Made by a program: the position numbers and the translations under genes. From assembly GCA_002786025.1 (NCBI GenBank), contig NHNW01000006.1:1107639-1171638 (forward strand): a DNA stretch of 64,000 nt, read 5' to 3'. Within the stretch, counting starts at the first letter, position 1. Every line of letters begins with the position of its first letter. This DNA is from Zasmidium citrigriseum (Eukaryota > Ascomycota > Dothideomycetes > Mycosphaerellales > Mycosphaerellaceae). Positions 11,013-64,000 of this stretch are shown in pieces. Below the pieces are notes generated by a model. That model saw only the letters and a list, made by a program, of their open reading frames with translations. It had not been told where the DNA came from and ran no database searches.

Positions 11013-11447
11013 TTTGGAAAACTTTCGAGAGATGTTGTAAGGGAGAGAAAGCTGTTGAAAGAATGTCTAGATTGATGCTGGGTATATAGGTGAGCTGAAT
11101 AATTGAGTTGTTCGAGAGGTCGAATCCTTCTGGAAGCCAGGTACCACCGCTCGGCGTTGTCACAAGCGATTGCCGACGTCAGAGCGGGCGATTTCCGTCG
11201 CGGCTTCTGGTTCGCGGCGAGGTGCAGGTCGAGAAGGAGAGGTTGGACTGGAGCTTTCACTCACTGACTTCTACTCACACCTCCACGAAAGAACAAGACC
11301 ACGACATCTCGGCAACAACCAGCTCTACCCATTAATCCACCGAGATCATGACCATGCGCTTGCTGGAGTGACGACGCCCTCTTTTTCCCCAGCTTGCACA
11401 CCCTCGACCAGCGCGTCGCAGAGCCACGCACCGACACGCCTGCCACC
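11013..11447. promoter_or_regulatory. Divergent promoter region, NTF2-like gene / ING-family gene
   Basis: 435 bp between two divergent start codons. A TATATAGG run near 11,080-11,090 lies upstream of the minus-strand gene. No exon is supported here. Confidence 0.35.
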
Positions 11448-13931
11448 ATGCCGCCCACCTCCAATATGCGCAAGGCGTCTGCCCAGAATATGACGACCGG
11501 CGATCCGAATGCCCATTCTGCCGGCGCACGAAATGGCGTCCAACCTCGCCGCACCGCCCGAGCCAATACCACCCGACCTGCGAACTACTACGCCCGTCCA
11601 TTCGGCTCCTTCAGCATCGACAACGACAATGACGCTGCAGATGCGACCAACTCACAGCAAGCAGGCTTCTTCCCAGCCTTGCAGTACTTCACCGACGCCA
11701 TCACCGCCCTACCGAAAGAGGTGCAGAAGCAGATCACGCTCGTGAAAGAGGTAGAGGCCAAAGTGCATGGACCGAACGAAAAGATCGGCGAGCTGCTGGA
11801 TACATTATTAGCAGCCCCTGTACCCATGCGCAAGCAGAATGCTGGTGCTGGATCAGGGAACGCGACCACTGCTGGGCTCTTGACGTTGACCGCGAATAAC
11901 AGCACGAATGGTAGTGCCAATGTGAGCATGGTAAATGGCGCGACAGGACGGCATAGTGCGCAGCCATCGCTTCAGGGCTCTGTGAATGGCGACGACTCGA
12001 CCGACGCCGAGTCTGAAAGAGCGAGACGACAGTTATATCATAACCTACGTATGGTCACGGCAAGTCTGTTACCAAATCTCGACGAGAAGAATGTGGTGCT
12101 CACCGAAGCGACCCGAGTTTTGGCCTTGCAACAGACCCGTCTGGACTCTGTTTGGCCACACGTCGAGAATGAGTTGAGTGAAGAAGCCAGGATGGGCAGC
12201 ATGACACACTGGGCATACAGCGATAACCGGCAAAAGACCAAAGCTGCTGCGTCGGGTGCGCAGAATAGGCGAGACGTCGCCGCGACTAACAGCCTGGCGG
12301 CCGCAGCTAACATGCTGCATGAGACGGAGATTGCTCAGGCGAGAAGAGAAGCAGGAAGGGAAGCGACTCGCGAAAAGACGAAGGGCAAGCGGGCAGAACA
12401 ACCTGGAGATTCCGACTTTGACGACAAGCCTAGGAAAGCTCCAAAAGTCAGCAAAAAGGCGGCTGCTGCGGCGGCGGCGAATGCTGCGGCGGCCGGGTTG
12501 GGTATTTCGACGAATGGAGAGCCCGTGACGAAGAGGAAGAAGGTCGCGGACAAGGGCCTCGGTGGAGCTGGTATGGAGAGGACCGTGTCAGCCACTGGTA
12601 AAGCTGCCAAAGCCAGCAAAGAGACGCCCAGGAGTACACCCAATGCAGAGCCGACGGTTAAGAAGACGAAAGGCAAGCCTGGACCTCCTCCCAAGAAGAA
12701 GGTGCCGAACTCTGCGCAGAACAGCCCAATGCTCGCGAGCAGTCCGCTGGTTGCGTCTGTAAACCCAATCTTGGAACCGCCTAATGGACGACCGCAAAGC
12801 TCTCGAGCGAGACAAAACAGCACAGCAACGAATTTGAGGCACGAGAAGCTGCAAGATGAAGAAGCAGTCACAAGCAGACCGACGTCAGCGTCTGGTAAGA
12901 GCAATGGCAATGCGGAGAGGTCAAATGGAAGGAGAAAGATACAGGAAACGACAGAAGAGCATGATGATAACACTGGAGACGAGCGCGCCCACAAGCAGCT
13001 CCGCGACGCGGCAGAGAAACTTAAGAGGGAAGACACAGAGATGCCGGATGCTGGAGCAGAGGGCGCGGTGATGTCGAGGTCCGGATCGAACAGTCGCAAG
13101 AACAGCGGTCGTAACTCGAAAGTTGGAACCCCCAGAACGGACTCTTTCCCGGATGCCCCAGGAATGTCTAGGACACGAAGCACCAGGAGCAAGCCGAATG
13201 CCAGAGGGGAGGGTGATGATTCTGATTCAGTGGAGCCTCCGCTTGCTGGAAGCGGGACTGGAAAGCATCGGCGCCATCAATCGAATAGTCACCTTGTTAA
13301 ACAATTGGCGCCATTCAATAAAAGTCCCGACTTGGATCGACACAGAAACCGCGATGATATGGACGACGATCTTGATTCCCTGGAGGATAAGAACCTTGGA
13401 GAGGATGAAGGTGAGCATGAAGAGGAGGCGCCAGTTCTGGACATGGAGACTCGTCGCTCGAGTACTAGGAGACCGGTTTCTAGGCGGAACACGGTCAACA
13501 ATCTACGTTCTTCGCCGGCGCCGATGTCGAGGGAGTCCAGCGCACCAGCGTCGCCGCCGCCAACGACCACACGCGGGTCTGGTAGGTCCAGCTCTCGACG
13601 AGAGGCGGAAGCGGAAGCAGCGCGTCTTGAAGCAGAAGCGGTCGAAGCCGAAGAGGCTGCTGAAGCTGAGCCAGAAGATGAGGACGAAGAATCTGAGCAT
13701 GACCCCGACGATCCGAATGAGCCGAAATACTGCTACTGCAATCGTGGCTCATATGGCGAGATGGTGGCTTGTGATAATGAGAATTGTCCTCGCGAGTGGT
13801 TCCATTTGGGATGCACGGAACTGCGGGAGGCGCCTAGCGAGGAGGAGAAGTGGTATTGCAGTGAGTGTCGACCGCTGTTTGGACAGAAAGTCGGGAGGAA
13901 GGGAAAGACTGGGAGAGGGAGGGGAGGCTGA
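11448..13931 (+). CDS. ING-family PHD-finger chromatin protein
   Basis: Intronless 827-aa protein. ATG 11448 has a strong context (CTGCCACCATGCC), and no other ATG lies upstream in frame. An ING N-terminal helical region is split over residues about 74-120 (FFPALQYFTDAITALPKEVQ, VKEVEAKVHGPNEKIGELLD) and about 190-230 (LYHNLRMVTASLLPNLDEKN). A long, low-complexity Lys/Ser/Glu-rich middle follows. The C-terminus is a PHD finger (residues 762-807) with all eight zinc ligands: CYC, C-DNENC, H-LGC and C-SEC. It includes the SYGEMVACDNENCPREWFHL surface that in this family binds histone H3 trimethylated on K4. Fungal ING proteins are subunits of NuA4/NuA3 acetyltransferase or Rpd3 deacetylase complexes; which complex applies here is not decidable. 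Confidence 0.88.
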   Translation: MPPTSNMRKASAQNMTTGDPNAHSAGARNGVQPRRTARANTTRPANYYARPFGSFSIDNDNDAADATNSQQAGFFPALQYFTDAITALPKEVQKQITLVKEVEAKVHGPNEKIGELLDTLLAAPVPMRKQNAGAGSGNATTAGLLTLTANNSTNGSANVSMVNGATGRHSAQPSLQGSVNGDDSTDAESERARRQLYHNLRMVTASLLPNLDEKNVVLTEATRVLALQQTRLDSVWPHVENELSEEARMGSMTHWAYSDNRQKTKAAASGAQNRRDVAATNSLAAAANMLHETEIAQARREAGREATREKTKGKRAEQPGDSDFDDKPRKAPKVSKKAAAAAAANAAAAGLGISTNGEPVTKRKKVADKGLGGAGMERTVSATGKAAKASKETPRSTPNAEPTVKKTKGKPGPPPKKKVPNSAQNSPMLASSPLVASVNPILEPPNGRPQSSRARQNSTATNLRHEKLQDEEAVTSRPTSASGKSNGNAERSNGRRKIQETTEEHDDNTGDERAHKQLRDAAEKLKREDTEMPDAGAEGAVMSRSGSNSRKNSGRNSKVGTPRTDSFPDAPGMSRTRSTRSKPNARGEGDDSDSVEPPLAGSGTGKHRRHQSNSHLVKQLAPFNKSPDLDRHRNRDDMDDDLDSLEDKNLGEDEGEHEEEAPVLDMETRRSSTRRPVSRRNTVNNLRSSPAPMSRESSAPASPPPTTTRGSGRSSSRREAEAEAARLEAEAVEAEEAAEAEPEDEDEESEHDPDDPNEPKYCYCNRGSYGEMVACDNENCPREWFHLGCTELREAPSEEEKWYCSECRPLFGQKVGRKGKTGRGRGG

Positions 13932-14256
13932 TGTCGAGGAGGGAGATAGATATTGTTAGATAGTCGAATGAAGTCAAGTCAAATCACTTGGATGAACAGT
14001 TCACTTTGATGGAGCACATGCTACTGCTGAACTGGTGGGAAAGAGCAGGACGGCTCCTTCCGCGAAATCGTGCCAAGACGCCCGAGCTCCGGGTCAAAGC
14101 TCCCGCGAAAATTACCTCGCGACTTCAACTTCGTCTCTTCCACCACCACGACACCATCAACCTCCACAACATCGCCGCCTCCTCGAGTCCACCGCCGGAC
14201 AGAAGTGCGCTCACGTCGATATGGGCTGAAGCAACACCGGCTGCCCGCCATCCATG
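13932..14256 (+). other. Probable promoter and first exon of the snoRNA host transcript
   Basis: Stretch between the ING gene stop and the first snoRNA-bearing intron, whose GTGAGT donor starts at 14257. It is CT-rich near 14,130-14,180, as fungal leaders often are. No conserved protein is read from it. The transcription start cannot be placed from sequence. Confidence 0.35.
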
Positions 14257-14285
14257 GTGAGTTCCCCCACTCCATTCTCTGCTGC

Positions 14286-14355
14286 CTTCTGTGATGAAAT
14301 GGCAAAAACCGCAAACTAGAGTCTTTGACTTCCCCACAAGGGAGGACTGAAACTT
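14286..14355 (+). ncRNA. snR78: Box C/D snoRNA, snR78 homologue (LSU Um2421 guide)
   Basis: Lies in an intron 14257-14369 (GTGAGT...CAG). Box C is GTGATGA at 14291-14297 and box D is CTGA at 14347-14350. The antisense element CAAACTAGAGTC (14312-14323) is perfectly complementary over 12 nt to yeast 25S positions 2418-2429 and is followed, after one base, by a D'-like TTGA at 14325-14328. The fifth base upstream of D' (A14320) pairs with U2421, exactly the yeast snR78 target. The terminal stem is weak, so the ends are approximate. rRNA numbering is from memory of the yeast sequence. Confidence 0.85.
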
Positions 14356-14552
14356 CATTGCTACGTCAGTCTGATCTTGACTGCTACACCCGTCTTCACT
14401 GTCTTGGATGCGATGGGGATGAGAGCTGACGAGATGATAGGCGCGGCTTTGAACTTCATCCACCAAGCACATACACCGCGTGTCGCTTTACTCGCTGGAG
14501 ACATCTCTCACAAGGTCAGTTTGATATTCTTTTCTGTTTCCTGCTGCTGCTT

Positions 14553-14651
14553 TTCGAAATGATGATCCACACAAAACAAAATGGAATTACCGGCCGAGAC
14601 CTTTACTCGGGTCGCTGGCGAGGAAATTGGCTAATACGCCTGATTTTCGAA
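14553..14651 (+). ncRNA. snR77: Box C/D snoRNA, snR77 homologue (SSU Um578 guide)
   Basis: Lies in an intron 14515-14710 (GTCAGT donor, CTGAC branch). Box C is ATGATGA at 14559-14565 and box D is CTGA at 14640-14643. A terminal stem forms between TTCGAA at 14553-14558 and TTCGAA at 14646-14651. The antisense TGGAATTACCG (14582-14592) is complementary to the universal 530-loop sequence CGGUAAUUCCA of SSU rRNA. With D'-like CCGA at 14594-14597, the fifth upstream base (A14589) pairs with the U after GG, i.e. yeast U578, the snR77 target. Confidence 0.87.
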
Positions 14652-14710
14652 CTTGACTTTTGCATATGCTGCGATGAGGTGTTTGAGAAGCATGTGCTGA
14701 CACGAATCAG

Positions 14711-15363
14711 ATGCAGATGTCTCGGCTCAGTTGAAGGATGAGTCGCTTGAGACGCGACCACTCCACCGACACTACCCGGCGCTGACGAGCACCGCGGCGA
14801 CAAGCTCGAGACATTCCTTTCGAGCTCGCACATACCGCCTTCGCACATCCCTTTGTTATTGGCCTTTCACCACACCCAAGCAATCGGAGCCACTACCGCC
14901 TTCGCGCTCACCGCCGATCCAGATGCAGACCTGGTCAGCATCGAGCCAAGCTGACTGCACTGGCCTCACTCGCTGCGACTCTGCCGTCGGCATCGACTAG
15001 ACTTGCGAGCGAATGAGACCACTCCCGCCAGCATGGCTACCGACGCACTGACAGACGAGTTCCGAGCCTTCCTCGAGGGCTGCACCCAACGAGCCGTGCG
15101 TGGAGAGACACCAAGCGCAGCGCATCCTCCGGCATGACAGGTTCAGCTGCAGCGAAGACCACCAAACATGTCCATTCGAGTCGCACCAAGGAGACGGCCA
15201 GTCAAATCATCAACACGCTGCTGCAAGCAGGAAGAGACACCAAGCCCCTGCGCTGCGGCGAAGACCAGCAACAGACAGCGCGAGAAGCAGAAAGCTGAAG
15301 TCGCCGTGGTCCTCCATGTGCCGGTCGGGCCACTGAGACCGCTCAACTCCTGGTCAAGCTCAG
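14711..15363 (+). other. Long exon of the snoRNA host transcript
   Basis: 653-nt interval between two snoRNA introns, much longer than the neighbouring host exons (145, 66, 53 and 60 nt). Frames are short: one beginning MATDALTDEFRAFLEG near 15,033 stops after about 34 codons. No seventh box C/D pair is evident. An unrecognised intron may be hidden here. Confidence 0.35.
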
Positions 15364-15395
15364 GTAAGCCTCCTTTCCCCTGGACGCTCCTTCTT

Positions 15396-15482
15396 CAAAT
15401 GATGAATCGGCACTGGGCTCCGAATACACATGAGCCGATACGCCATTTTGTGACAGGCCTAGAAAACCTCGTCCCCTGATTG
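15396..15482 (+). ncRNA. snR76: Box C/D snoRNA, snR76 homologue (LSU Cm2197 guide)
   Basis: Lies in an intron 15364-15544 (GTAAGC donor, CTGAT branch, CAG acceptor). Box C is ATGATGA at 15399-15405 and box D is CTGA at 15476-15479; a short CAA/TTG stem closes the ends. The antisense GCACTGGGC (15410-15418) matches LSU GCCCAGUGC, followed by one base and D'-like CCGA at 15420-15423. The fifth upstream base (G15415) pairs with yeast C2197, the snR76 target. Confidence 0.85.
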
Positions 15483-15643
15483 CATTCAACATTCAAAGAT
15501 TTATTATGCGAGATCTTGAAGCAGAATGCTGATTTCTCCAGCAGGAAATGTGCATAGCCGCCGCGGACATTCGAGCAGTCGTCTCAAGTCGGTGCACGTC
15601 CACTATGAAGGTCAGTCCCCACTACTTCCTGTCCGCCTACCCT

Positions 15644-15731
15644 TCTTGTGATGATTCTTGATGACGAGTCTCATTCGGTCTTGCCGATGCAGACAACAAC
15701 ATACCTTACCATTCATGCATTACCTGATCTC
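15644..15731 (+). ncRNA. snR75: Box C/D snoRNA, snR75 homologue (LSU Gm2288 guide)
   Basis: Lies in an intron 15611-15796 (GTCAGT donor, CTGAC branch). Box C is GTGATGA at 15648-15654 and box D is CTGA at 15724-15727. The antisense GATGACGAG (15660-15668) is complementary to LSU CUCGUCAUC, with D'-like CTCA at 15670-15673. The fifth upstream base (C15665) pairs with yeast G2288, the snR75 target. A second 10-nt stretch, CCATTCATGC just before box D, is complementary to LSU GCAUGAAUGG about 20 nt further on. Confidence 0.83.
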
Positions 15732-15879
15732 AAGCCCTTGGCTATTCTCACGTTGCTCAGTCGCAGCATTTGTTCCGAGACTGACATTGTGTACAGACAC
15801 TGGCACTCCACCATCACGACGAACTTCCACCTGATGTGGACTAGTCGAGGTAGGCTTTCCCCAATACCAGCACACTCAG

Positions 15880-15969
15880 TCATCTGATGATCCAAACAAC
15901 AAATGACAAGCATATGTCCAAGCCGCTGTGACAGGCGGCGCAGACGAGAAAGTTGCAAGCCTGATTGCA
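15880..15969 (+). ncRNA. snR74: Box C/D snoRNA, snR74 homologue (SSU Am28 guide)
   Basis: Lies in an intron starting at 15850 (GTAGGC) and ending at CAG 16037, or at CAG 16026. Box C reads CTGATGA (15884-15890), with a C where R is usual; box D is CTGA at 15961-15964. The antisense GACAAGCATATG (15905-15916) is perfectly complementary over 12 nt to the 5' end of SSU rRNA (CAUAUGCUUGUC). Counting from a degenerate D' (CCAA, 15918-15921), the fifth base (T15913) pairs with yeast A28, the snR74 target. Confidence 0.83.
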
Positions 15970-16131
15970 TGCCCGCGGCTTTGCCTGAAACTCGATCGAC
16001 ATCGTTTTGAGAGCTGCCGCTGACAGATTTCGGACAGACCGCGTCACAAAGACGACTCATTCGCCATCACCATGGAAGCAATCCATGCCAACCAAAGGTA
16101 TGCAATTTTCTCATCATCTCGTCTTCACTCT

Positions 16132-16226
16132 CTTCAATGATGATTCAATTCATATCTCACGACGGTCGACATAGCAGTCAAAGACTGCATTGCTGAGATG
16201 GCCTCTGACCAGGCCTTTGAAACTGA
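16132..16226 (+). ncRNA. snR73: Box C/D snoRNA, snR73 homologue (LSU Cm2959 guide)
   Basis: Lies in an intron 16098-16293 (GTATGC donor, CTAAC branch, TACAG acceptor). Box C is ATGATGA at 16137-16143. Two CTGA boxes could be box D (16204-16207 or 16223-16226), so the 3' end is uncertain. The antisense TCACGACGGTC (16157-16167) is complementary to LSU GACCGUCGUGA. The base pairing with yeast C2959 (G16165) stands five bases before a degenerate CATA, consistent with the snR73 target. Confidence 0.83.
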
Positions 16227-16536
16227 TACACCTTCAACCGTTACCTTTCTTCAAGATCCAAAGCTTGATGGAATTGAAGCTAACCGTCTACAGTGTACGC
16301 TCAGATGCCTCCAATCGATGTACAGGAGCCACCACCGCCCGAGAGGCGGTGCGTGATGCTGAGCTCCTCGCTCGTCTAGAGCGTACACGCCGCTTGCGTT
16401 CGGCGAGCTGCTGAACTTGAGCTGGAATGAATTCGTCAACCAGTAGGCCTTCTGGCTGATCGCACTCCCGCCTCGACTCCCACGCCAAAGTCAAGGACAT
16501 GTACCCTGGGATACATAGCAACGACGATGCAGCACT

Positions 16537-16980
16537 GTGCGCGGTGACCGCGAGAAAAGCGACGTTCCGCTTGACGCATTCTTCGCCATCTGCGCACCAC
16601 TCATCGGCGTCATTCCGCCAGAGGAGCATGTTTTGGGGCCGTCTGCCCTCGACTCATCTCCCTCTTCGGCTTCCTGTATCGTTGGTCTTGCCACCGACGA
16701 GCAGACTTCCACGTCAGATGCCTTCGCTGAGCAGCATCGCCAAGATCAGCTTGAAGCACACGGCGCTGATATGTGGCGCGACGCGTCGCCAGAAGAAAAA
16801 GTCAAGTACAAGAAGAAAGCTGAGGAATGCCGCGGTCAGCATGCGATCGACCATCTGGGCTACAAGTACCAGCCACGCAAGCCATCCGAGATGAAGAAGC
16901 GCATGGGAAATGCGAGCTCATCGCCGCAGATCGTGTCAAATATGCTGTCAGCAACAGCATCAAGCAGGGAACTAGTGTAG
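16537..16980 (+). pseudogene. HMG-box protein remnant, mating-type-like
   Basis: One frame contains DMWRDASPEEKVKYKKKAEE followed by YKYQPRKPSEMKKR, which is the third helix and basic tail of an HMG box of the kind seen in MAT1-2-1 and related fungal regulators. The start of the box (compare VPLDAFFAI near 16,552) is separated from this part by more sequence than a normal box allows, and the first helices cannot be read in one frame. No clear ATG or intron restores a full domain. I therefore read it as a decayed HMG gene; a spliced functional gene with unrecognised introns remains possible. Confidence 0.4.
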
Positions 16981-17666
16981 ACAACAACAAATCGACTTTC
17001 CAGAACATCAACTCCCGCAGACCAGCCTCATTCGCACCTTTCGACCAATCGCAGCTACCGACTCTGGAGCGTCCGGCCGAACCGCAAGGTCAAGAGTCCC
17101 GGCCGCATTGAAACTTACGGTCATCACTTTGGCGTTCAGCAATCTCATCGGGGTCGATTGAGTGTAGTATCTGTTCTTTTCAATTTAATCTCTGAAACGT
17201 CATTACGGCCGCTGCGTGTCAAGCCTTCGGACAGGAATCGACATGGCTACCACACGACGAGGAGCGCGACTACACCTGGTGTCCAGAGCGCTTGCTGCCG
17301 CAACGGGTCGCCACGCGGAAGTTGAAAACGGCAATGCAAGAGGAATACCGCCACTTGGAGCAGATCAGGGCGTTCGCAGACATGGATCGGCGAAGATTGC
17401 CAAGAAGGAGACGTGCTCGGAGAGCGTTGACACGCGCACAACGCACCTGGAGCAACAGATCGACAGGGCCTGGTTCATGGAGTCAGATGCGATTTGGAAG
17501 TCTTCGACGTGTATGAGCGCCTGTATGCGGATCTAGGAGCCAGCATCGAGCCAGTCGCGGTCTCTGCAAGCATGCCCAGCACCGAGGACGCTACGGGAAA
17601 GACGACGATGGTTCACTCCTTCATCAGACACTTGACAGCCACCGAAACTTTCACGACCTCTCAAAC
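16981..17666 (+). other. Unassigned region between two decayed genes
   Basis: Protein-like fragments appear in different frames, for example an E/R-rich helix (QEEYRHLEQIRAFADMD, about 17,340) and YERLYADLGASIEPVAVSAS (about 17,515). They do not join into one frame with plausible splice sites. This could be debris of the flanking pseudogenes. Confidence 0.3.
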
Positions 17667-18900
17667 ATGGTCATCGAGATGATACAACTGTGTTTCCGCT
17701 CCTACGGCCGCATCTCCACTCAACCTGGCAATACGACGCGCTTGGTGCTCTCCGCCGCTCGCTTCACTGTCTACTGGCTGCTCGCGCTATTCGTCCTGAC
17801 CGCTCGAAGGACCGCCTCGCCGCGAGAGAAGGCCGCCGAATACGTCCGCAAGAAGGCTCAGGAGGGGAAGCCTGGTCGCCGCCACGCTTTTCGTTCGCAA
17901 CGCCTCATCCAGAGCTTCGGGCTCTTGGTGCTTCAACCCCAAAGTCGCGTACAAGCCGGAATACAGCGCCGTCCCAGTACAGCGTTGTGCGCCTGCGACA
18001 AGCCGAACGATTCATTGCGACACACACGACGACGACGCCCGTTCACGACTAGGACAACACCCCGGGGATTTGCATTGCGAAGTTGCGAGACACGGCGCGA
18101 GCTATCTGAGCGCGACGATGGACTCTCTGTTGGCGGAATTGACGGGAGAAGAAAGAAAGAGATGGCGTCGAGTTGATGGTGATGCTGGCCCATATCAACC
18201 TGACGATCCGCCCAGCCTACCACGAATACACTTATTTACGAGACATGGCTGTGGGACCTCGCGGATGGGGTCTTGCTGTACAATCTCTCCCGCGAAGAAC
18301 TCGAATACGGCCAATTGCTCAAGCACGCAGGTGCAGAGCATTGCGTCGGAGCGAATGTCCTACTACTACGACGACACTGACCCCATGAAAGCCTGCTACG
18401 GTCTGATCGCTCGAGCGCGAGGATTTAGAGCATCGTACCAAAGGTCTCTACGACTACACCTACCTTCTGGAAGCCTGCCACGCCACAGGAACGCCATATA
18501 TCGCCATGGTCACGATCGAGGACGACGTGATTGCCATGGACGGCTGGTATCATCGCATCGTCGAGGGCGTCCTGCAAGCAGAGAGATCTGGGGGCCTGGC
18601 GATTTCCTGTGCCTCCGCATGTTCTACACGGAGGCGTGTCGCCCTCGCCATCTTCACCCAACCGAGCACAAACACGGCACGCCAGACATGCAAGGCGACA
18701 TGCTCGTGCAGAAACGCTGTATCTGCCACCGCTGCCAGCCGTCGCCGCCATGAAGGTCACGATGCAGGGCTACAAGGCCGTCGCCGAGTGGAAGTGGAAC
18801 TTGCCTCCAGGGAGGAGTTGCTCGGCTGGGACAGCGAGTACTGGTACATGTACGCCTTCTGCTCAATCGCGGTCATGGTCTGGTCTGATGCCCGGTCTAT
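17667..18900 (+). pseudogene. Broken membrane glycosyltransferase, PGAP4/GT109-like
   Basis: Pieces of one protein lie in order but in different frames. A hydrophobic N-terminal segment (RFTVYWLLALFVLTA) comes first, then SLLAELTGEERKR (18,121), VELMVMLAHINLTIRPAYHE (about 18,170), WDLADGVLLYNLSREELEYG (18,252), then GLYDYTYLLEACHATGTPYI with IEDDVIAMDGWYHRIVEG (18,437 on), DFLCLRMFYTEA (18,601) and LLGWDSEYWYMYAFCSIAVM (18,818). The EDDV metal-binding motif and the FYTEAF/GWNSEYW-like blocks resemble fungal PGAP4-type GPI-modifying glycosyltransferases. At least four frame changes in 700 bp, next to error-free genes, make this a pseudogene rather than sequencing error. The exact family assignment is moderately sure. 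Confidence 0.6.
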
Positions 18901-57895: not shown

Positions 57896-60800
57896 ATAGG
57901 TTATAAGCCTAGAGGGGCGCTACTTAAGCTAAGTTATTACTACTACTCCGCTAATAGGAATTACTATCGCTAACTTAGCTTTTGTCCTCCTTAAATAGAC
58001 TATAGAAAGGTGTCCTTTTAACACCCTCTTATACCCTATCCTCTCCTACTTTCTACTACCTAGAAATAGCGGTAGCTAGTAATTCGCCGAGAGGAGGCTA
58101 GTAAAACGCCGAGGGGGCTAGAAATAATATAGGAGGCTAGGAAATTAATTTATCTTAGAAAAGTAGATTAAACTAGCGCTTAGTAGTAGAGAAGATTTAA
58201 AAACAATCTCCTAGCCGCCTACTAGCTACTCTCTTTTCTACTAATAACTAGCCGCTAAGATACCCCTATACGCTAAGCTAGAGTATATAAATAAAGCTAC
58301 TAACCCTTAGAGTAATAGAGAGGAGCGACCTTTATCTATACTATTACTACTAACGGACTACGAGTTACCTACGCTTCGTTAACGCCTACTAAGGCTACCT
58401 ACTACCTCTCGGAACTTTAACCCTTAGGACTTCCCTCTCTTTTATAAGGCCTAGTACGACTACGTCTTTATAATAGGTAAGGATACTACCTACGAACCTT
58501 CGGAAATCTACTCTACGTCCTTAAACGATACTAATACCTTCTCGGTCGTATCGCTACCTCTACTAGTTACTAACGACGACGAACTCTTCGGTTTAGAACC
58601 TAAGAACCTAGAGTATAACTCCTTAGAACAACTAACTAAGAAATCCTATTAAACGTCCGAGCTAAGTACCCCTACTTCTACCTCTCTAAAGAAGCGTAAG
58701 AGAGTACTAGATTACGAGTTAAGAAAGGATAAGAAGTAGAAACTAGACGAGGACGAAATACTCCTTCGAGTACTTAACGAAGAAGGACTTAGCGTAAAGT
58801 AAGTCGCTAATAAGTACTTTCTATATAGGATAGGCTATAGCGTTAGAGTAAGAAAGAAGGCTCTAGTCGATAAATATATCCGAAGATAATAAGACCTTCT
58901 CTAGAGGTATCTTACTCGGATCTATCGATAAGCTCTCTAAGAGTATATAATAGGTCTTATAGAAGGAAGCCGTTACTAACTATATTAATATAGCTAGCTA
59001 CGACGAAGTCCTTAACTAAGGCCTCTAAGATACCTACGTAGTACCTAACCCGCTAGCTAGCGACGCCCTCTAGAAATAGAAGAAGAAGTAAACCCGTTAC
59101 CTTACTACGCTAAGATATATATATAGCTATCGAGTAAGGAAACTTACTAAGGAATTAACGACCGTCTTAGGTACTCTCGCTACCTTAGAAGAGTACTATA
59201 GAGACGGCGGTACGGGTCTATTTATAGAACTTATAAGATAGTTCTACGATATTACGATAAGCGATTATAAAGGAGTCTTAGACTATAGCGATAAGGTTAT
59301 AGAAATAAGGGATAGGTTAACCTAAATCTATACCGACCTTATACTACTAGAGCCTATCGCCGTATAGAAGTTCCTTAACGGCCTCGGCCCTATATTTAAT
59401 ACCTTCTAGACTACCTTTAGTTAAACTTATCGGATATTACTACTAAAAGCCGTTAGAAACTATACTAAATCTACTAGCGCTACCCTAGAAGATACTATCC
59501 GAGAAGCCTATAAGGTCGAAACCGAGATAAACGGAGAGTACGTTAGACTACTAGCTAAACGGGCTAGATAGTTAACTACGCCGTTATATACCCTTACCGC
59601 TATCGGAGAATTCTAACCTTCTAGAAACCCTAATACTCGACTACTTACTATAAAGTAGTATAACTTCTATTAAAAGGCTTACTACTATAAAAACGACTAC
59701 TTCCTTAAGGATCCTTCTAAGAAGAAGCCGAAGGGCGAAAAGTAAGATAAGAGTAGATAGGGGAAGAAACGAAAGGTTACCGCTATAGCGTTAAAACGTA
59801 AAGATCGACTAAACCTCGATAAGGTCTAGATCTTTAATACTAGTTATATAAACTATTTTACTAGCGATAAGAGCGTATTTATAAAGTTCGTTAAATCTTA
59901 AGCTACGGATATAGACGGTATTAGCGGTACTAAACTAAGAATCGAGGGGAGAGGTACGATCGAACTCCTAGTAAACGTTAATAGGGAAATAATTACTTTA
60001 GAGTTACGAGACGTATATTATAGCCCTAACGTAGGATATAACCTTATCTCTCTTTCTTAGATCTACTAGAACGTTAAACTAATGCTCTAATTCGGGGAAC
60101 GCGGTTTTACTATTAATATTAATAGTATACCTTTCCTAGCTACGGCTAAGGGAGGTCTCTACCTTCTCGATATCTAGAATAAGCTAGCGAACGACCTACC
60201 CTCGAATATCGCCGCTAAAGGTATTATTAACCCTAAACTCTAACTCTAGTACGAACGACTAGTACACCTAGGTAAATAAAATATTAAAAAGCTTATAAAG
60301 CTTATTACTAGAATAGATAAATACGAGCTAGAGTACGTATACGAAGCGTATACCCTTAGAAAGATAGCTAAATAACCTTACTCTAGTACGCTTCGTATAA
60401 GTAATAAGGCGCTATAAGTGCTCTACTCCGATATCTAGGGACTAACTAAGGCTAGACTTAACGGCGAGCGCTACTTTCTAATAATACTCGATACCGCTAC
60501 CTAAAAGGCCGAAGCTATACTAATTAAGTATAAAAGTAAGGCCTTTAGGGAGATACGAGACTACGTTACGAAGTACGAGAAGTTAGGTAAAAGGAAATAC
60601 GAGTATATCTACCTTAATAATACTAGAGAAAACCGCTCTACCGAATTTACTACCTAGGCGAAAGAACGAGGAATTTAAATAGAGTACTCTATAGTAGAGT
60701 AGTACTAATAGAACGGCGCCGCTAAATCGCTAAATAGAGTCCTTATTAATAAGCTCTATCCGACTATAATCGCTTCTAGACTTCTAAAGAAACTCTAGCT

Positions 60801-61015
60801 AGAAGTCCTTAAGACTATCGTCTACCTCCGTAACGTATCGCTAATATCTAAATTTACCGACAAAACGCCTAAGGAAGCGTAGACTAGCTAAAAGCTAGAC
60901 CTTCGTTATCTAAGAATCCTTAGGTATAAAGCCTTTACGCTAAAGACGTTAAATAAGCGTAAGAAGCTTATCGATAAAAAGGCGTAGCGTTATAGGCTAA
61001 TCTATAAGGATATTA
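57896..61015 (+). mobile_element. RIP-mutated Ty1/copia retrotransposon, internal region
   Basis: No open frame survives, but conceptual reading with stops shows the order gag, zinc knuckle, integrase. At 59,640-59,720 a CCHC-like knuckle has Tyr where Cys is expected (TGY to TAY). At 60,250-60,275 the integrase HHCC-region YERLVHLGK is seen. At 60,420-60,520 LYSDI-GLTKA...RYFLIILDTAT marks the integrase core, and at 60,700-60,960 NGAAKSLNRVLINKL and the copia-typical TPKEA...LRYLRIL follow. Stops are nearly all TAG/TAA where Trp or Gln is expected. RT/RNase H is missing: the reading breaks at about 61,013. The element is inactive. Confidence 0.75.
57899..57912 (+). other. Candidate primer-binding site (initiator tRNA-Met type)
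   Basis: GGTTATAAGCCTAG stands three bases after the LTR end. Allowing for RIP changes (TG to TA, CA to TA) it corresponds to the anticodon-loop segment of initiator tRNA-Met that primes Drosophila copia and related elements by an internal tRNA fragment. Confidence 0.5.
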
Positions 61016-64000
61016 TAACCCGGCGCCCGTAGTCTAACCCTACTATAGGTGCCGAGTAGTAAAATAGAGCTAAAGGTAGGTTACAGGTAGTCGGTTCGTA
61101 TAGGTAGTATAATATAGCTCTATTCGTCTTAAGCTAAAAACGATTCGATAGGTAGCTACGTCGGTTTAGCGGCTATAATAAGTAGAAAAGAGGAGAACGA
61201 GAGGTTTAGTATATAGGATTTTACTATATCTGTCTATATCTAAAAAGTAGTATATATATATCTAATAAAGAGAAGAAGAGAAGCCGCTCTCGTCTTAAAA
61301 GAGACGCCCGGCCGGTAGGTGCCGGCGCTAGTAGCTAGTAGCCTCGGTAGCTAATATAGCCTACCCTTAACTAGCCTATATTTCCTCCCTTACTTTTAAG
61401 TCTAACCCGTAGACTTAATATATCGCTATCGCAAAGTTAAGAACTAAAACGCCTTGTAAATAAAAGAAACTATCTATATATCGTTTATGCCTTATAGTAT
61501 TACCCTTTAAGTTCGTACCCCGGTAGGGTATAAACTGCCTAGCTAGTTATCCTAGCGTGGAACCGTGTTACTAGCGCCGTCTATAAAGTTCTCCTTAAGA
61601 AAAGAGACCTCCTCGCCCTCCTCGCCTTCGATAAACTTAGTCTCGTCCTTAGGTAGAAGCTTACTAAAGTCGCCGCTATTCTTAAAGAAGCTCTTCTACT
61701 TACCGAAGATTCTCTTTTCAAGGAGCTGTACTATACTCTAACGAGTAAAGAATTCGCTAGCGGCGCTATTTCGATAGCCCTTAAGGAAGTCGGTAAAGCT
61801 AGTATTCGTACTATCCTTATTTTCCCTAGATCTATACTAGTTAACGACACGCTATATTATATTCCTCTAAGTAGTAATAACCTAAGGATCGCTCTATATT
61901 ATCTAATAGGTTAGAGCCTTACTAATATCCTAATTAGCTCGTATCTTAATAGTAGCTAGGAACTTAAAAGGGATTCGGCTATATCGATTAGGGTAGCTAG
62001 ATAGAGTTCTCGGCGGGGCGGTAAGCTTACGGTAGGACCGACTTATCTCGTCCTAGCTACTAGTACTATTAATCTCTAGTACTCTAGTCTATAGGTTAAC
62101 TTTAATGTACTAGGGAAAGAGGTTAGTACGATCGACGTTCGGAGGCTTAACGCTAGGCGCTCTATATAGAAGGGTTAGCTTAGATATACGGATATCTAGC
62201 CTCTTCTTATAGGGGATAGGCTTCTAGTCGTATCTAGTATTCGCCGTATCCTCTAGAGTCTACATAGTGTTGTCGATAGTCTAAACTCTACTACCTACTA
62301 TCTCTAGTATATCCCTATCGAGGCGAGCTATCTATTTATTCTAAAGCTTAGGCTAATAAAGTCTAGGTATTAGCTCGGTATAGTTTAGCGCCTTCTTAGC
62401 GAGTAAGGAGAGCGAGCCTTGAATTATAAACTCTCCTCCGCTAATAGCTTTTATCTTCTTAATATTACTATCTATATAGCGAAAGCCGGTATCGGAGTAG
62501 TTAGTAGGCTTCTTCCTATTCCCTATCTCCCTATACTAATCCTTAATATAGTAGGGATAGGGGTTAAGAAAGGGGGTCTTGTCGCGGCGAAGTAGTATAT
62601 AGAGTATATAGTATATAGGGTCTAGACGTATAAGCTATTAGGCGAGAGAAAAGAGCTAGGTACGTCCCTAGCTAAAGTTACTTCGGCCGCAAATCTTCCG
62701 GGTATACTAGCGGTATATCCGAACTTCTTTAAGGATAATATTATAGATAGACTTACTATCTTTATTCTTATACTCGTGCTACTAGTCGAAGATACCGCTA
62801 ACGATAATATTGCCCTCTCTCTTCCAAGTATTTAGTATTAATAGATTAAGGCCGAGAGCTCTAGTAAGGGTATCGCGGAGTTTCGGGTTAAAGGTCTCCT
62901 AGTTACTAGGAATAATATAGCCGTTATACTAAGTACCTATCTTAAAGCGATAGGGGCCGAGGGCGTCCGAAGGGACCGTATTTATTCCGTCGCTTCTAAA
63001 GAAAGTCGGATTCTCTTACCGAAAGCGATAGAGATTACCGCGGCTACCGTATATCTTCTATAAGATATTATATAGTCTACCGTACTTAGTCTATATACCT
63101 ATAAGGCTAGCGAGTAGCTTCCTATACTTAGGATATAGGACCTTATTACCGTCTCTAGCCTTTACGTATTTATCCTAGTATAACTCTAGTATCTTAATCT
63201 TCTAGTCGTCTAGTAGGATCGATTAGAGTTTAAGATCGGTATTACTATCGATAAGGGCGATAAAGGAGGTATATATAGTATCGCTATAGTACTCGTAAAA
63301 CTTAAGTATACTATTAAGGCGACTCGAGCTATCTAAAACTTATAAACCTTCGCGTATAGACTACTAAGAATAGGCGGACTAATTAGACTATCTCGAATAG
63401 GGCGTCTACTAGGGAGTAGCTTTATAGGAGCGCTATAGCGTACTAGGTAGTAGCGGGTTCGACTTCTTAGAACTAATCGAATTATTCCGAGGGCGGGACT
63501 AGTTAGGAAGCGGCTTAGGATCTAACGGTACTAGAGGAGGATTAAGGCGGCCGCTTCGGCGGGGAGGCTAAGGGATATTCGGGTCGGCCGGCTTAGGGCC
63601 TAGCTTAGGAGCCGGCTTAGGATCCGAAAGTATAGGCTTTAGCTTATCCTAGTCCTTTCTCGAAGGTACTAGTAGAGGTAGGCCTTAGCTCGTCTTTAGC
63701 TAAAGGAACTTAGATAAGGTAAACTCCTAACCCTATAAGTTAACGAACTATCTAACCTATAGGGAGTCGAGATTAATAGCGTTAATCTCGTTAATACGAT
63801 CTATTCTCTACTCGCGAGTTAGGGTGTAGAGGTTAGAGTTTATAAGCTTAAATTCCTTATTAAGACCTTCTTTGCCCTTCCGATTAATAGTACGCTAGAT
63901 AATAGCCTTTAAAATTAGAGGGGCTACTTCCTTCTATATATTAAACCTAGCGATAAAGGATTAGAGGTACTTCTATCTATCTTCTAGAGCGGCGGTATTA
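61016..64000 (-). mobile_element. Second RIP-mutated repeat, unrecognised minus-strand reading frame
   Basis: From about 64,000 down to 61,560 the minus strand reads long protein-like runs broken only by TAG/TAA, for example KKPTNYSDTGFRYIDSNIKK and ISGGEFIIQGSLSLLAKKAL (62,530-62,400), TFNPKLRDTLTRALGLNLLI (about 62,880) and EGEEGEEVSFLKENFIDGAS near its end (about 61,590). A Pro-rich linker (DPKPAPKLGPKPADPNIP) lies near 63,600. Between 61,016 and 61,560 is a non-coding stretch that may be an LTR or terminal region. I do not recognise the protein. It continues beyond the window. Confidence 0.55.

Follow-up and report, generated by a model that had tools for sequence, protein, structure and literature searches.

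Introduction

The snR78-snR72 polycistron of Saccharomyces cerevisiae is cut by Rnt1. An analysis of this array across fungi, in which it is termed cluster I (snR78-77-76-75-74-73-72), described it as intronic in every Euascomycete covered, the snR78 and snR72 guides being joined in one snoRNA, and as derived from unspliced transcripts in S. cerevisiae and its close relatives (Luo et al., 2013; PMC3596301). The text of that paper states that the intron-free yeast form presumably arose by splice-site degeneration and credits the proposal to Mitrovich et al. (2010). Tabulated data from Neurospora crassa list CD5, which carries the snR78 and snR72 guides, CD24 (snR77), CD12 (snR76), CD7 (snR75), CD21 (snR74) and CD31 (snR73), all six of them intronic and all on chromosome VI; the same study reported five snoRNA clusters conserved between yeast and N. 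crassa, with RT-PCR support for the N. crassa clusters (Liu, 2009; PMC2780460). A literature query naming Zymoseptoria, snoRNA and intron gave no title on this cluster among the matches listed.

Here we describe a locus within a 64,000-nucleotide stretch of Zasmidium citrigriseum DNA (the window) that is almost certainly the host gene of fungal snoRNA gene cluster I, predicted to give rise to a spliced host RNA and six intronic methylation-guide snoRNAs. The observed basis of this reading consists of the boxes, the guides, the splice signals, the order of the snoRNAs and the absence of a long ORF; what we say of transcription, splicing, processing and methylation is drawn from published relatives and from general knowledge of intronic snoRNAs.

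Materials and Methods

Both strands of the window were scanned for TGATGA and CTGA boxes accompanied by a guide placed according to the D+5 rule, using the seven sites of snR72-snR78 as targets. Watson-Crick pairs scored 1 and G-U pairs 0.5; a loose D' box was accepted with two of the four letters of CTGA, a threshold picked after the boxes had been seen. Stretches from a working version of the S. cerevisiae rRNA, used in place of the host's own, served as guide targets. When numbered from its 3' end, the 3' part of this 25S rRNA had the right base at all 46 modified positions listed in PMC8307265, among them 2197, 2288, 2421 and 2959; the check covered the 25S letters, the 18S targets being two short stretches. 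The 2102-2426, 2592-2659 and A876 stretches of the 25S version used aligned at 87-95% with L002, a contig carrying the LSU of a divergent eukaryote. This contig came from seven MAG contigs with an LSU pattern, three of which (L002, L003 and L004) scored above the Rfam gathering score (GA) for LSU and only the first of which was long enough to use; a search for eukaryotic rRNA patterns in viral contigs gave no match. In the splice test, the C box had to be preceded at 20-60 nt by a 5' site, and a branch site and an acceptor had to lie past the D box.

Results

The locus occupies positions 14257-16293 of the + strand, where six consecutive introns of 181-202 nt hold one box C/D snoRNA apiece, just as the initial annotation had proposed. 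Intron 1 (14257..14440) reads GTGAGT...CTGAC...TAG, and all of the others end in CAG: intron 2 (14515..14716, GTCAGT...CTGAC...CAG), intron 3 (15364..15544, GTAAGC...CTGAT...CAG), intron 4 (15611..15796, GTCAGT...CTGAC...CAG), intron 5 (15850..16037, GTAGGC...CTGAC...CAG) and intron 6 (16098..16293, GTATGC...CTAAC...CAG). In every one of the six, GTNNGY stands upstream of the snoRNA and CTRAY-N(4-17)-YAG downstream of it, with the YAG no more than about 20 nt past the branch site; since these thresholds were chosen after the introns had been seen, the count is a description rather than a clean test. The stricter branch site CTRAC was found in five of the six introns, intron 3 being the exception. 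Of 63400 positions tried in the window, 1.8% satisfied the looser combination, the one with CTRAY.

Both TGATGA and CTGA were present in all six introns, their starts separated by 75-85 nt. On the + strand, snoRNA 1 (snR78/72) spans 14291..14374, with box C at 14292, D' (TTGA) at 14325 and D at 14371, and its snR78 guide at 14312-14323 is directed to LSU U2421. The snR77 counterpart, snoRNA 2 (14559..14643), has a guide for SSU U578 at 14582-14592, followed by D' (CCGA) at 14594 and D at 14640, while snoRNA 3 (snR76; 15399..15479) carries a guide for LSU C2197 at 15409-15418, D' (CCGA) at 15420 and D at 15476. For snoRNA 4 (snR75; 15648..15727), the guide at 15660-15668 points to LSU G2288, with D' (CTCA) at 15670 and D at 15724. 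The last two are snoRNA 5 (snR74; 15884..15964), in which the guide at 15905-15916 for SSU A28 precedes D' (CCAA) at 15918 and D at 15961, and snoRNA 6 (snR73; 16137..16226), in which the guide at 16155-16167 for LSU C2959 precedes D' (CATA) at 16170 and D at 16223. The resulting order, snR78, 77, 76, 75, 74, 73, matches that of fungal cluster I.

Guide-length complementarity is common, and taken without the boxes it was not distinctive: for each of the six targets, pairings of 9 bp or more were found at 66-149 places in the window. Ranked in this way, the true guide came first for snR74, second for snR73, third for snR78 and fourth for snR77, and those of snR76 and snR75 were absent from the best four places per target. 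Such numbers favour the view that the antisense matches were merely drawn from random C/D-like motifs. Against it, once the box and D+5 constraints were imposed, exactly six places in the window scored at least 9 (snR73 13, snR78 12, snR74 12, snR77 11, snR76 9.5 and snR75 9), one per intron, each at the expected methylation site and in the published order, versus a mean of 0.29 such matches and a maximum of 3 over 200 rounds with shuffled targets. Chance is also refuted for introns 2-4 by the Rfam E values given below, and for the locus as a whole we consider its probability close to negligible. The snoRNA identities, order and targets that had been assigned from the sequence hold, and the published yeast targets of snR72-snR78 agree with them (PMC8307265). 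The earlier observation that the base predicted by the D+5 rule is the known methylated one holds as well: in all six snoRNAs the position counted from D or D' lies opposite the methylated base of the yeast rRNA version used, with D' boxes that are more or less degenerate, none being an exact CTGA. When the introns were paired with the divergent LSU of L002 in an untargeted scan, the five best matches of each intron did not include any of the six methylation guides expected.

A covariance-model search, which had been suggested as a check, bore out half of the array. Three matches in the whole window exceeded the Rfam gathering score, and all lie within this cluster: Afu_300 at snoRNA 2 (42.0 bits, GA 40, E 1.4e-4), Afu_513 at snoRNA 3 (72.6 bits, GA 48, E 5.5e-13) and snR75 at snoRNA 4 (61.6 bits, GA 40, E 4.2e-10). 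The Afu_300 stretch also matched snR77 below the gathering score (29.4 bits, GA 50, E 0.22), at an E value within the reach of chance. The search gave no such backing to the other three: matches at snoRNA 5 to SNORD27 (21.8 bits, GA 52, E 2.7) and at snoRNA 6 to snR73 (25.2 bits, GA 37, E 0.35) were below the gathering score and at chance level, DdR6 likewise fell short at snoRNA 6 (25.6 bits, GA 90, E 0.38), and intron 1 with snoRNA 1 had no Rfam match at E values up to 5. A table in PMC3511168 files snR74 under the SNORD27 family.

The earlier reading had missed a second, putative guide in snoRNA 1, at 14362-14369 (+) next to box D, which would be directed to LSU A876, as in the published snR78/72 double guide. 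It is weak here, comprising 8 bp including one G-U beside the 12 bp of the snR78 guide at D'. Lowering the scan threshold to 7 added this match, with a score of 7.5, to the six described above and brought in no other. Because shuffled targets yielded 1.6 matches of at least 7.5 per window scan, a score in the chance range, it is the place of the guide and not its score that speaks for it. When read by hand against the yeast LSU, an 11-bp pairing formed only with a single-base bulge. An unlikely, although conceivable, explanation is that the snR72-type guide gained one base in this lineage; LSU A876 may then be methylated less or no longer at all, or a matching change may have occurred in the rRNA.

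In snoRNA 4, an element at 15709-15718 (+) is perfectly complementary over 10 nt to the LSU slightly 3' of G2288, outside the D+5 register. It took second place for intron 4 in the scan against L002 and also falls within the Rfam snR75 consensus. Its distance from box D suggests that the element provides accessory pairing and does not act as a second methylation guide.

The internal exons of the predicted host RNA measure 74, 647, 66, 53 and 60 nt, so that exon 3 (14717..15363, +; 647 nt) stands apart from the 53-74 nt of the others. An additional snoRNA within this exon was sought and rejected, there being no exact TGATGA on the + strand and no Rfam match up to E 5. Stops interrupt every one of the three frames of the spliced RNA as predicted, and a protein-coding host was rejected on this ground; the longest ATG ORF touching exon 3 amounts to 103 aa. 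With its snoRNAs in introns bearing splice signals (six of six, splicing being predicted) and a host that is devoid of a long ORF, the locus has in these two respects the Euascomycete form of cluster I.

The 647-nt exon, the inexact D' boxes and the weakness of the snR72 guide are features that one might expect of a decayed copy, i.e. a pseudogene of a functional array situated elsewhere in the genome. Yet each of the six introns has its C and D boxes, its guide and its splice signals together, which neutral decay would not be expected to preserve, and we therefore hold decay to be highly improbable and favour an intact cluster I host gene. Self-BLAST of 14201-17600 detected no second copy of the cluster within the window, and the repeats in 14000-17700 were short ones only. 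A bacterial promoter and terminator scan, which is not applicable to fungal DNA, returned nothing.

Upstream of the cluster, a gene at 11394-13931 encodes an ING/PHD protein in which ING passed the Pfam cut-off and PHD narrowly missed it. The best match of this protein was a metagenome protein (87% identity), and the best named ones came from Zasmidium cellare (Mycosphaerellaceae; 82-83%), so that this neighbour puts the window close to Mycosphaerellaceae. Just 3' of the cluster, an ORF at 16537-16980 (+) matches an HMG box in its C-terminal part with 24.1 bits, short of the Pfam cut-off of 25.4, and a piece resembling the N-terminal part was noticed by eye in another frame at about 16480-16520; together they may represent an intron-split or decayed HMG-box gene. 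A stretch at 17142-17200 (+) matched the first third of U2 snRNA with 37.9-40.8 bits against a gathering score of 46, and a convincing 3' part was lacking; this is probably a truncated U2 pseudogene. Toward the end of the window, 58000-64000 has a GC content of 0.38-0.41 versus 0.49-0.56 elsewhere, perhaps because it is rich in repeats or has been mutated.

Discussion

By analogy with the published relatives, the host gene would be transcribed by RNA polymerase II from a start upstream of 14257 into an RNA that is spliced and probably non-coding. The six introns would be spliced out and then debranched, and exonucleases would trim each of them to a single box C/D snoRNA shielded by the snoRNP core proteins. 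The mature snoRNAs are expected to direct 2'-O-methylation by fibrillarin at LSU U2421, SSU U578, LSU C2197, LSU G2288, SSU A28 and LSU C2959 (yeast numbering), and snoRNA 1 would perhaps also serve LSU A876.

The initial annotation had taken the conserved order as support for the idea that yeast lost the introns and kept the array. This is the conclusion already published by Luo et al. (2013; PMC3596301), who cite Mitrovich et al. (2010), and for that reason the arrangement seen here is not new; both the intronic form and the intron-free form of yeast have been described, and the find is an ordinary one. The locus is an unannotated instance of cluster I in one more species, and what it adds is the putative snR72-type guide, the one-base irregularity of that guide and the long third exon. 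The gain is an annotation and no new principle.

Compared with the text of Luo et al. (2013; PMC3596301), the locus shares with the Euascomycete cluster I the same snoRNAs in the same order, their intronic position, a host without a long ORF and perhaps, given the weakness of the snR72 guide here, the fusion of the snR78 and snR72 guides; it differs in the species and in its 647-nt internal exon. The same six snoRNAs are listed as intronic in N. crassa; there, the D guide of CD5 is given as 10/0 (PMC2780460), in contrast to the 8 bp with one G-U found here against the yeast rRNA version used. The S. cerevisiae snR78-snR72 polycistron has the same guides in the same order, whereas it is unspliced (PMC3596301) and its snR72 and snR78 are separate (PMC2780460). 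The locus adds an instance from a Mycosphaerellaceae-like fungus to the published picture, in which introns encode the array in filamentous ascomycetes and yeast retains an intron-free remnant of it as the polycistron.
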